From Gemmatimonas sp. (lineage in GTDB: Bacteria > Gemmatimonadota > Gemmatimonadetes > Gemmatimonadales > Gemmatimonadaceae), in assembly GCA_011390885.1 (NCBI GenBank), contig JAABRO010000018.1:1-46163 (forward strand): 46,163 nt of DNA, read 5' to 3'. Within the stretch, counting starts at the first letter, position 1, and each line of letters starts with the position of its first letter. The notes beneath the pieces were generated by a model. That model was not told the DNA's origin, did not search any database, and worked only from the letters and a program-made list of their open reading frames with translations. The translations under genes were made by a program, and so were the position numbers. Positions 22,049-24,533 of this stretch are shown here, piece by piece.

Positions 22049-22177
22049 GGGCGGTACGATACGCCGCGGGGCGAGGCGCGCCAGCTGCAGGCGGTGTGAG
22101 GGCGCGGCTGCGGTCGAAAGATGGGGACGGCGCGGGAATGATGATGTCGGCGTGTGGCGGGAACCCCATGCTACGGC
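22049..22177. promoter_or_regulatory. Divergent intergenic region penicillin acylase / intI
   Basis: 129 bp between divergent starts, which should hold the integrase promoter. No clear -10/-35 or LexA box. In most integrons attI would be here; the core GTTRRRY sites are instead found after the 3' end of intI. Confidence 0.4.
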
Positions 22178-23152
22178 ATGACCGGACGTCGACTGCTGGA
22201 CCAGGTGCGGGATCGCGCGGCGGTGCGGCGCTACAGTCCGCGCACCACGGAGGCGTACGCGCGATGGATCGTGTCGTACGTGAAGCATCACGGGCGCCAG
22301 CACCCTGCGTCGCTCGGGGCAGCGGCCGTGCGTGAGTTCCTCACGTTCCTGGCGCGGGAGCGGCGAGTCGCCGCCTCCACGCAGAACCAGGCGCGTGCGG
22401 CGCTTCGTTTCCTGTACGCCGACGTGCTCGGAGCGCCGCTGCCGCTGCTCGACGGGGTGGCCCCCGCTCGGCGCCCGGCTGTCCTGCCGAACGTGCTCTC
22501 GCGGGCAGACGTGCAGCGGGTGCTCGCGGTCATGGAGGGCGTGACACAGCTGATGGCTCGACTGCTGTACGGCTCCGGACTCCGGCTGACGGAGTGCTGC
22601 CAGCTGCGGCTGAAGGACGTGGACCTCTCGCGCGGCGAGCTGCGGGTGCGGCGCGGCAAGGGCGGGCGTGACCGCGTCACGATGGTGCCTGAGTCGTTGC
22701 GAGCGGGTCTCGACGTCCAGATGCAAGCCAGCCTCGCGCAGCGTCGTCGCCGCCGCGCGCAGGGGCGTGGTGCCGTGTGCCTGCCGGACGCGTTCGGGCG
22801 GAAGTCGCCGGGCGCGAGCCGACACGCGGCATGGTGGTGGCTGTTTCCGGCGAGCCGCGACTATCAGGACCCGTTCGACCGCACATGGCGCACGCACCAC
22901 CTGCACCAGAGCGTGCTGCAACGGTCGGTGCAGCAGGCCGGACAGCGTGCCGGTCTCACGCAGCGCGTGGGCTGTCACACGTTCCGGCACTCGTTCGCCA
23001 CGCACCTGCTCGAAGCCGGGTATGACATCCGCACCGTGCAGGAGCTGCTCGGGCACCGGGATGTCTCCACGACCATGCTCTACACGCACGTGCTCAACAA
23101 GGGCGGCCTCGGCGTGCGCAGCCCGCTCGACATGGATCCCGCGCGCGGGTGA
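22178..23152 (+). CDS. intI: Integron integrase IntI (tyrosine recombinase)
   Basis: 324 residues. The tyrosine recombinase residues are all present: Arg136 (GSGLRLTE), His267 and Arg270 ([10 protein letters not shown]), His293 (GHRDVS) and Tyr302 (MLYTHV). It also has the integron-specific insertion between the Arg and His motifs, roughly 195-235, with WWWLFPAS and DP after it, and the typical tail [14 protein letters not shown]. Unlike XerC/D this makes it an integron integrase that recombines attI with folded single-stranded attC sites. The ATG at 22178 gives the right N-terminus; a GTG at 22154 is also in frame. The gene reads towards the cassette array, an inverted arrangement. Confidence 0.95.
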
Positions 23153-23187
23153 GCAGTGGCCTGTTGGCTGCTCGGCGACGATCGGCA

Positions 23188-23212
23188 TTATGCTGCAATA
23201 TGCGCAGCATAA
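23188..23212. promoter_or_regulatory. Palindrome 1 between intI and attI
   Basis: Perfect 9-bp arms TTATGCTGC (23188-23196) and GCAGCATAA (23204-23212) around AATATGC. The outer sequence (TTATG...CATAACAC) is shared with palindrome 2 at 23299-23326. It could be an operator, perhaps for a regulator of intI or cassette expression, or an integrase accessory site. Confidence 0.5.
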
Positions 23213-23272
23213 CACGGAACAACGGATCAGCTCGCTTGCCGCGGAAGTGGTTGGGCGTAGCTTGGTTAGAGG

Positions 23273-23298
23273 GGGCAAGGCGTCGCGAGGCGACCCCC
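23273..23298. terminator. G/C hairpin downstream of intI
   Basis: GGGGG (23273-23277) can pair with CCCCC (23294-23298) around a GC-rich loop that contains another small palindrome (cgtcgcgaggcga). It is 120 bp after the integrase stop and could terminate intI transcription before the cassettes. No T-run. Confidence 0.35.
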
Positions 23299-23326
23299 GT
23301 TATGTCGCAAAAATGCGTGACATAAC
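23299..23326. promoter_or_regulatory. Palindrome 2 between intI and attI
   Basis: Perfect 8-bp arms GTTATGTC (23299-23306) and GACATAAC (23319-23326), with partial GC/GC inner pairing. The outer halves resemble palindrome 1, so one protein may bind both, about 110 bp apart, between the integrase and the first cassette. Confidence 0.5.
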
Positions 23327-23339
23327 ACCTGGCCCGCAG

Positions 23340-23370
23340 TGATTCCCTGCAGTCCAATTCACGTTAGGGC
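23340..23370 (+). other. Candidate attI site
   Basis: GTTAGGG at 23363-23369 is the first core-like GTTRRR site after intI and directly precedes the first cassette gene (ATG 23399). The sequence before it, GTGATT ... AATTCAC, makes an imperfect inverted repeat of the kind seen at integron simple sites. No GTT core with an attC-like partner arm is seen upstream, which fits attI rather than attC. attI sequences are poorly conserved, so this is an inference from position. Confidence 0.6.
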
Positions 23371-23398: not shown

Positions 23399-23680
23399 AT
23401 GTCCGCGAGTCCCACGCACGCCCCTGATCCCGCGCCACAGCACACGGTGCCGCGACGTTACATCGTTCTCTTCGGCGTGGTATTCGGCCTCATGAACTGG
23501 TTCTTCCTAGGTGCCGTCGCCGTGTTCGAGGGGCGCTCGTTCCTTGATCGTAGCGCCGTACTCTTGCCAGCGTCACTCGCGGCGGGTCTGCTTCTCAGCG
23601 AGTTCCTGTGGCGCCGTCGTGCGTACGTGGGACGGCGAAACGAGCGGTCGACGCCGCCTGCCCCGAGCGACGCGCCCTAA
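23399..23680 (+). CDS. Cassette 1: small two-helix membrane protein
   Basis: 93 residues. Two hydrophobic segments at about 22-45 (IVLFGVVFGLMNWFFLGAVA) and 52-70 (SAVLLPASLAAGLLLSEFLW), with a charged Arg-rich end. Cytoplasmic ends on both sides are likely. GGAG at 23387-23390 lies about 8 bp before the ATG. It is the first gene after attI, and its stop codon TAA is part of the attC core, typical of integron cassettes. No recognisable family; composition is less GC-rich than the flanking chromosome. Confidence 0.8.
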   Translation: MSASPTHAPDPAPQHTVPRRYIVLFGVVFGLMNWFFLGAVAVFEGRSFLDRSAVLLPASLAAGLLLSEFLWRRRAYVGRRNERSTPPAPSDAP

Positions 23681-23768
23681 CGATACGTTGCTGCGGTCAG
23701 CGCTTGTCGGAATGCGCGCTGCGCGCGCAGTTTCACGGGAGCGCTGCTGCAGAACTCCAACGTTAGGC
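23675..23768 (+). other. attC site of cassette 1
   Basis: 94 bp between R'' core CCCTAAC (23675-23681) and R' core GTTAGGC (23762-23768). The inner arms TTGCTGC...CAGCGCT and AGCGCTGCTGCAGAA pair with one unpaired G in the TT-G-CTGC position, the extrahelical base that guides integrase to the bottom strand. Recombination would occur at G/TT of the R' core. Confidence 0.85.
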
Positions 23769-23823: not shown

Positions 23824-24126
23824 ATGGGCGTCTTCTTTCGCACCGCGGAGTTCGATGAGTGGCTGAAAGCGCTCCGAGATCCGATCGGGAAAGCGCGCAT
23901 TCTTGCTCGCATCCGTGCGGCGGAATTGGGTCACTTCGGCGACTCGGCGTCGGTGGGCGATGGCGTCTTTGAACTCCGCATTCATGCGGGGCCCGGCTAT
24001 CGCGTCTACTACTGGCGACAAGGCGCCGTGACGTACTGGCTGCTGTGTGGCGGGGACAAGTCGACGCAACGTCGAGACATCAGCAGGGCGAAGCAGTTGC
24101 GAACTCGCGTGGAGAACGAACCATGA
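23824..24126 (+). CDS. Cassette 2: HigB/RelE-type toxin
   Basis: 100 residues, length typical for the Gp49-like (PF05973) branch of RelE/HigB toxins. Landmarks: EFDEWLKAL near 9, RARI near 27, VGDGVFELRIHAGPGYRVYYW near 44-65 and LLCGGDKSTQRRDI near 74-87. Family members are ribosome-dependent mRNA interferases. The stop overlaps the antitoxin ATG as ATGA. Toxin-first order is typical of HigBA. A perfect palindrome in the promoter and carriage inside an integron cassette suggest autoregulation and stabilisation of the array. Confidence 0.92.
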   Translation: MGVFFRTAEFDEWLKALRDPIGKARILARIRAAELGHFGDSASVGDGVFELRIHAGPGYRVYYWRQGAVTYWLLCGGDKSTQRRDISRAKQLRTRVENEP

Positions 24127-24416
24127 AGAAAGCGATCCCGTTCGATGCCGCTGACTATCTCGACAACGAGGAAGTCATCTCGGAATACCTCAACGTCGCG
24201 CTCGCGAGTGAGCATCCTGATCTCTTTCTGCAAGCGATTGCCGACGTGGCAAAAGCACGCGGCATGTCACAACTCGCCAAGGATACAGGACTCGGCCGTG
24301 AGAGTCTTTACAAGGCGTTGGCCCCGGGGGCCAAACCACGCTATGACACGGTCCTGAAGCTTCTGCGAGCGCTGGGCGTGGAGATGCATACGAGCCCCGT
24401 GGTTCGGGAAGCCTAA
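24123..24416 (+). CDS. Cassette 2: HigA-type antitoxin (addiction module antidote)
   Basis: 97 residues. FDAADYLDNEEVISEYLNVAL is the N-terminal motif of the putative addiction module antidote family; an Xre-type helix-turn-helix follows, about 45-80, with ARGMSQLAKDTGLGRESLYKAL. It should bind and neutralise the adjacent RelE-like toxin and repress the operon at the palindrome 23800-23815. It overlaps the toxin by 4 bp. The stop TAA lies in the attC R'' core GCCTAAC. Confidence 0.92.
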   Translation: MKKAIPFDAADYLDNEEVISEYLNVALASEHPDLFLQAIADVAKARGMSQLAKDTGLGRESLYKALAPGAKPRYDTVLKLLRALGVEMHTSPVVREA

Positions 24417-24533
24417 CGAAACGCTGCTGCCGACAGCGCGATGCGGTGGGCGGCAGGCGGACGCCGCGCTGGCGCACGGCGCCCGTCCGGCCGCATTCTG
24501 TTTGATGCGCTGCAGCAGAGCGCAACGTTACGC
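24411..24533 (+). other. attC site of cassette 2
   Basis: 123 bp between R'' GCCTAAC (24411-24417) and R' GTTACGC (24527-24533). The arms CGCTGCTGC...CAGCGC and GCGCTGCAGCAGAGCG pair with an unpaired G at the same CT-G-CTGC position as in the attC sites at 23675 and 25335. The R' core departs from GTTRRRY at one base. Confidence 0.82.

Follow-up and report, generated by a model that had tools for sequence, protein, structure and literature searches.

Two inverted pairs of integrase-like half-sites as a candidate accessory region of an extended attI in a Gemmatimonas integron

Introduction

What purpose could be served by two related palindromes lying between the integrase gene and the attI site of an integron? 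The question is raised by a DNA stretch of 46,163 nucleotides from Gemmatimonas sp. (contig JAABRO010000018.1 of assembly GCA_011390885.1), hereafter the window. A sequence-only reading had offered three options for the palindromes: SOS-type operators, sites for a cassette repressor, or integrase accessory sites.

Most of what is known about attI recognition comes from attI1, and its mobile integron is also the main source of knowledge on accessory sites. In attI1 the integrase IntI1 has four binding places, the direct repeats DR1 and DR2 included, and recombination with attC is optimal only when the site is complete (PMC12901181, PMC3518468, PMC8946536). The attI of Vibrio cholerae is devoid of such repeats (PMC8946536), so accessory sites are not general. 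A conserved and differently built accessory region in an environmental family would be a natural test of what accessory sites do. Nothing was found in the open-access literature on Gemmatimonas integron cassettes, nor on several attI sites per integrase. A search of the open literature likewise gave no report of inverted-pair attI sites or of attI-headed arrays devoid of intI; as most subscription papers lie outside it, this argues only weakly for novelty.

The integron and its two palindromes

The relevant features of the window are as follows.

22154..23152, + strand: intI, integron integrase, 332 aa from GTG (TIGR02249, 1.8e-114, 382 bits)
23188-23212, no strand: Pal1, TTATGCTGC-AATATGC-GCAGCATAA, 9-bp perfect arms, 7-nt centre
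23236..23263, + strand: putative cassette promoter Pc, TTGCCG-N16-TAGCTT, between the palindromes; weak, from aligned own-genus modules
23299-23326, no strand: Pal2, GTTATGTC-GCAAAAATGCGT-GACATAAC, 8-bp perfect arms, 12-nt centre
23335..23344, + strand: partial copy of the L box in direct orientation, CGCAGTGATT (consensus in the family TGCAGTGATC), from the alignment
23348-23357, + strand: attI L half-site, TGCAGTCCAA
23363-23369, + strand: attI R box, GTTAGGG; the attC of the first cassette ends with the same CGTTAGG
23399-23680, same strand as intI: first cassette ORF
23676..23767, + strand: attC of the first cassette
near 24412-24532, 25338 and 26380, + strand: further attC

The intI product scores 382 bits against TIGR02249, passing the curated cut-off of 265, and contains the Phage_integrase and Phage_int_SAM_4 domains; translation might instead begin at an ATG at 22179. 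The gene reads toward attI (R box at 23363) and the cassettes, and the four downstream attC matches are all on the + strand. This is a reverse (inverted) chromosomal integron with a genuine integrase. The attI has an inverted L/R core, TGCAGTCCAA ... GTTAGGG, with an R box of the GTTRRRY type, the last base of which departs from the consensus in the window, relatives having GTTAGGC and similar. Crossover is expected after the first G of this box. The L-like direct repeat is kept 13 bp upstream of L with a mean pairwise identity of 0.76. As to cargo, the second cassette (23824-24416) carries an HI1419/HI1420-type toxin-antitoxin pair, and an array on contig C62 of the same genome a different, HigBA-like pair (translations read by eye).

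The description of the palindromes themselves was borne out. Their coordinates are those listed above, both have the outer sequence TTATG...CATAACAC, their centres are ~112 bp apart, and the spacer from the intI stop to attI is 210 bp long (23153-23362). The centre of Pal1 lies ~147 bp and that of Pal2 34.5 bp upstream of the L box. Read as half-sites, Pal1 consists of TGCAGCATAA (reverse complement of the left arm) and CGCAGCATAA (right arm), and Pal2 of TGCGACATAA (reverse complement of the left arm) and CGTGACATAA (right arm).

Pal1 and Pal2 are not due to chance. When the spacer was shuffled with dinucleotide composition preserved, at least one inverted repeat with 8-bp arms appeared in 3.6% of the shuffles and at least one with 9-bp arms in 1.1%; two separate 8-bp-arm repeats appeared in 0 of 2000. 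Conservation is a stronger proof than the shuffles: dozens of related integron modules have both palindromes, always in the same places.

Conservation among relatives

An intI gene is carried by 124 of 250 genomes of the order, and ~90 intI 3' flanks were read. A DNA-level class search returned good copies only in the own genus, hence the use of a covariance model and of flanks anchored on the protein. The relatives are for the most part draft or metagenome-assembled genomes, whose contigs often end within arrays. Most of 22 modules from the own genus and near genera have both palindromes. The Pal2 centre is 34.5 bp upstream of L in nearly all of them. For Pal1 the corresponding distance is 145-147 bp, except in two modules with ~134. 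Pal1 at the window geometry was not found in more distant Gemmatimonadota integrons. Two more distant integrons, L076 and L092 (genus g5), possess a long perfect Pal1 (TCTTATGCTGC..GCAGCATAAGA) at ~-134, which suggests a related architecture with different spacing.

Mean pairwise identity over 36 modules is 0.66-0.73 for the arms and 0.75-0.81 for attI L/R, against 0.37 for the stretch between the palindromes: sequence drifts while spacing and arms persist. These figures bear on the view that Pal1 and Pal2 are non-functional relics of duplicated attI half-sites. The arms do resemble L, as described below, and some are degenerate. Yet the fixed geometry, and a conservation well above that of the inter-palindrome interval in 36 modules, including those devoid of intI, make such decay very unlikely.

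A further element was noticed at the edge of the region. A CTCGGCG box (~23171-23177 in the window) is conserved ~10-20 bp upstream of Pal1 in other modules too and forms the 5' edge of similarity in intI-linked and orphan modules alike. Whatever spreads the module may have its boundary at this box.

The palindrome arms as integrase half-sites

The arms have the consensus TGCAG[CT][AC]TAA, in agreement with the attI L half-site TGCAGTCTAA. A leave-one-out matrix, built for each spacer solely from the L boxes of other integrons, was run on both strands with no palindrome required. Its best matches gather at about -160(-), -145(+), -48(-) and -32(+), which are the four palindrome arms; the same holds in 20 orphan modules. 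Degeneracy is frequent in the right Pal2 arm, which is among the top four matrix matches in only 4 of the 16 linked modules and 9 of the 20 orphan ones.

The arms also follow the L box of their own integron. Among 16 intI-linked integrons, with arms picked by symmetry only, arm and own L agree at 7.11 of 10 positions, random 10-mers giving 2.51 and other inverted repeats between the palindromes 2.00. Against the L boxes of other integrons (permuted) the value is 6.55 (sd 0.17, p=0.0002), a p value that is optimistic because integrons share ancestry; the contrast with random and control repeats is independent of this. An earlier arm-selection rule favoured T..A outer bases and was replaced by the symmetry-only selection, with a similar outcome. 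Lineage-specific matching can be seen in single cases. In L030 the attI has TGCAAGAGAA and the arms CGCAAGAGAA and TGCAAGATAA; in L023, Pal1 reads TTAGACTGCA-ATATC-TGCAGTCTAA and the attI TGCAGTCTAAT, so that the arms are visibly that integron's own L box.

Both pairs face opposite to the L/R core, with their GTT/TAAC ends outward, and cutting of Pal1 or Pal2 is therefore not expected. Pal2 was also considered as an attC-like hairpin; this was rejected, as its R-box ends are the wrong way round (GTT...AAC, not AAC...GTT) and it is too short.

Is there a separate operator?

In the motif search of the same genome that the sequence-only reading had proposed, the pattern TTATG-N15/16-CATAA occurs five times in 4.07 Mb (62 contigs), every time in an integron module: both palindromes of the window, both of contig C44 and Pal2 of C62. 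The reversed control pattern occurs 0 times in the same 4.07 Mb. A blast of the spacer against this genome found further copies on C44 (93%), C62 (80%), C46 (70%) and C28, in which the palindromes are kept, with compensating differences. No intI accompanies the copies on C62 and C28, which lie beyond proB and an acyltransferase-like gene, respectively (gene functions judged by eye from the translations); the C46 copy adjoins a second intI fragment at a contig end. At this last locus (L008, C46:9834-10412) the intI fragment is 74% identical, the palindromes are recognisable but degenerate, and the attI core seems lost after TGCACTGATCCTCTGC.

Perfect dyads near a putative promoter could be operators of a separate regulator, either LexA/SOS or an integron-specific repressor. 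The LexA box has the consensus CTGT-N8-ACAG (PMC3108266), and Pal1 and Pal2 differ from it in arm spacing as well as in sequence. Since the motif is restricted to integron modules and the rest of the genome is free of it, there is very little likelihood of an operator of LexA type or of host-wide use, and the suggestion of SOS-type operators finds no support. Moreover, the arms equal the attI L half-site and follow L from one integron to another. A separate cassette repressor is still conceivable and would need the same half-site as IntI. Altogether, we regard control by a separate regulator as highly improbable. Among the options raised at the outset, integrase accessory sites appear well supported by the comparison of modules: the arms match the L half-site, track their own attI and hold fixed distances even where intI is absent.

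Promoter and transcript readings

Since the putative Pc lies between the palindromes, IntI bound to Pal1 and Pal2 might repress this promoter or loop the DNA around it, turning cassette expression off while recombination is on. The own-genus relatives have a Pc-like element, TTGCGR-N16-TAGSAT, and the general own-genus form TTGCSR-N16-TAGSWT is conserved between the palindromes and directed at the cassettes; in addition, the spacing is held and the interior sequence is not. The geometry, with centres ~112 bp apart, is like that of OE and OI of the E. coli gal operon. However, no promoter passed a strict sigma-70 scan, and the promoter-like element is not obvious in other genera. Such a switch is possible, though less likely than not; it would be compatible with accessory sites, as a possible second role of the same IntI binding. 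An inverted repeat, CGCTTGC-N3-GCAAGCG, overlaps the putative -35 in the C46 and C28 copies and is degenerate in the window (23234-23250); it could be another operator.

The palindromes could also act in RNA, Pal2 (and Pal1) forming hairpins in the cassette leader transcript as an attenuator or a riboswitch-like element. The symmetry of Pal2 is indeed retained with changes on both sides. Against this, an Rfam search gave no match and a strict terminator scan found nothing. What is conserved is the sequence of the arms, not just their pairing, and it equals an unpaired DNA half-site in attI; moreover, Pal1 lies upstream of the putative promoter. It is hard to credit an RNA function under these circumstances. 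A tRNA scan of the region gave nothing.

Modules without intI and service in trans

The covariance model of Pal2-attI was run on 148 genomes of the family. In the own genus and in that of G090 it revealed more than one strong module per genome, several as a rule, and the majority lie away from intI. Two closed genomes are informative in this respect. In G090 a single IntI passes the cut-off, with 380 bits against 92 for the second match, a partial one; the genome has five modules, all followed by attC cassettes, and two arm/attI sub-types beside this one IntI. G039 has one IntI and two modules. Both palindromes persist in modules devoid of intI, which stand at the head of attC arrays on the + strand. 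In the own genome, the orphans on C44, C62 and C28 are attI modules lacking intI, followed by same-strand attC arrays where the contig continues. The orphan modules of G090 are these.

C1: 395538, 4519670, 4664925 and 4679582: modules L147-L150, 2-6 attC each, the single IntI being elsewhere

With at least 2 attC and no neighbouring intI, orphan copies such as these four are CALINs by definition. The attC sites were detected with an iterated nhmmer profile, which replaced two regex detectors that were too insensitive. Nearly all of the 78 attC matches follow a module and share its strand, at linked and orphan modules alike, with one exception at the far end of C44. As a separate observation, the gene upstream of the 395-kb orphan module of G090 is present in nearly all members of the genus, and the similarity of C1:394938-395602 to relatives stops ~110 bp before the module, the position of which may be specific to G090.

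One orthologous orphan locus bears on the activity of such sites. In G146 and G116 it is 98.2% identical over 774 bp up to attI, followed by unrelated first cassettes; it is also present in G398 (89% to G090) and in G090 (~75% to G116 and G146). In all four species the homologous stretch (75-98%) breaks off ~3-11 bp or less from the attI R box, and each has another first cassette. Such turnover is a signature of exchange at attI with no intI in cis, and orphan attI sites seem to be active in trans. The C28 orphan of the own genome and the C26 orphan of G257 share the same first cassette (86%), and no match was found between their upstream flanks. Cassette exchange at an orphan attI alone is no proof of the integrase responsible, and the G116 assembly has no intI; that the single IntI performs the trans reaction is what we infer.

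Proposed model

In our opinion, Pal1 and Pal2 are probably two inverted pairs of IntI-binding half-sites that make up the accessory part of an attI of ~205 bp, laid out as Pal1, ~112 bp, Pal2, ~35 bp, L and R. Binding of IntI to the arms is predicted from their identity with L, and IntI protomers would occupy all four. Owing to the outward GTT/TAAC ends the pairs would hardly be cut. IntI on the arms and on L/R would then build a nucleoprotein complex of fixed geometry, favouring insertion of cassettes by attI x attC recombination as DR1/DR2 do for attI1; the accessory role of the arms is thus suggested by analogy. Against this reading stand the frequent degeneracy of the right Pal2 arm, the two arm/attI sub-types beside one IntI in G090, the failure to find Pal1 at the window geometry in more distant Gemmatimonadota integrons, and the attI of V. 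cholerae with no such repeats. The module as a whole would be portable, its intI-less copies heading arrays elsewhere and being served in trans.

A broader picture can be put forward tentatively. The Gemmatimonadaceae may possess a distributed integron, in which a single IntI serves, in trans, dispersed attI platforms devoid of intI, up to five or more in number, each with two fixed-spacing inverted pairs of IntI sites that license insertion and gate the cassette promoter. First-cassette turnover at intI-less copies suggests that several separate capture sites can depend on one integrase, so an array with no integrase next to it need not be dead.

Comparison with known systems

Like attI1 of class 1 integrons, the site described here has extra half-sites upstream of an inverted L/R core, with a presumed role in the efficiency of attI x attC recombination; those of attI1 bind IntI, and here binding is predicted (PMC3518468, PMC12901181, PMC8946536). 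Unlike attI1, which spans ~65 bp and has two direct sites, it extends over ~205 bp, with two inverted pairs centred ~35 and ~147 bp upstream and a single L-like repeat in direct orientation. DR1 and DR2 stand in direct orientation within ~65 bp, whereas the four sites here are inverted pairs at -160/-145 and -48/-32, and for this reason the site is filed as a variant of extended attI, not as attI1-type.

The reverse integrons of Treponema denticola resemble the present one in that intI reads toward attI and the cassettes, and putative DR1/DR2 lie by their attI (PMC7691350). They belong to a different phylum and are not known to have inverted pairs or dispersed modules. The orphan arrays are like CALINs, e.g., those of Xanthomonas, which are cassette arrays with no integrase nearby, thought to be mobilisable in trans (PMC12444791, PMC8618304). 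Unlike typical CALINs, they have a whole extended attI module at their start, and at one orthologous locus the first cassette has changed from species to species. Copies of this kind offer a concrete origin for some CALINs.

In cer/psi with XerCD and in the arm sites of lambda attP, too, recombination at a short core is conditioned by a region of ~200 bp whose geometry is fixed. These systems use other proteins or a second DNA-binding domain, whereas in the integron modules the putative accessory half-site is the core half-site itself.
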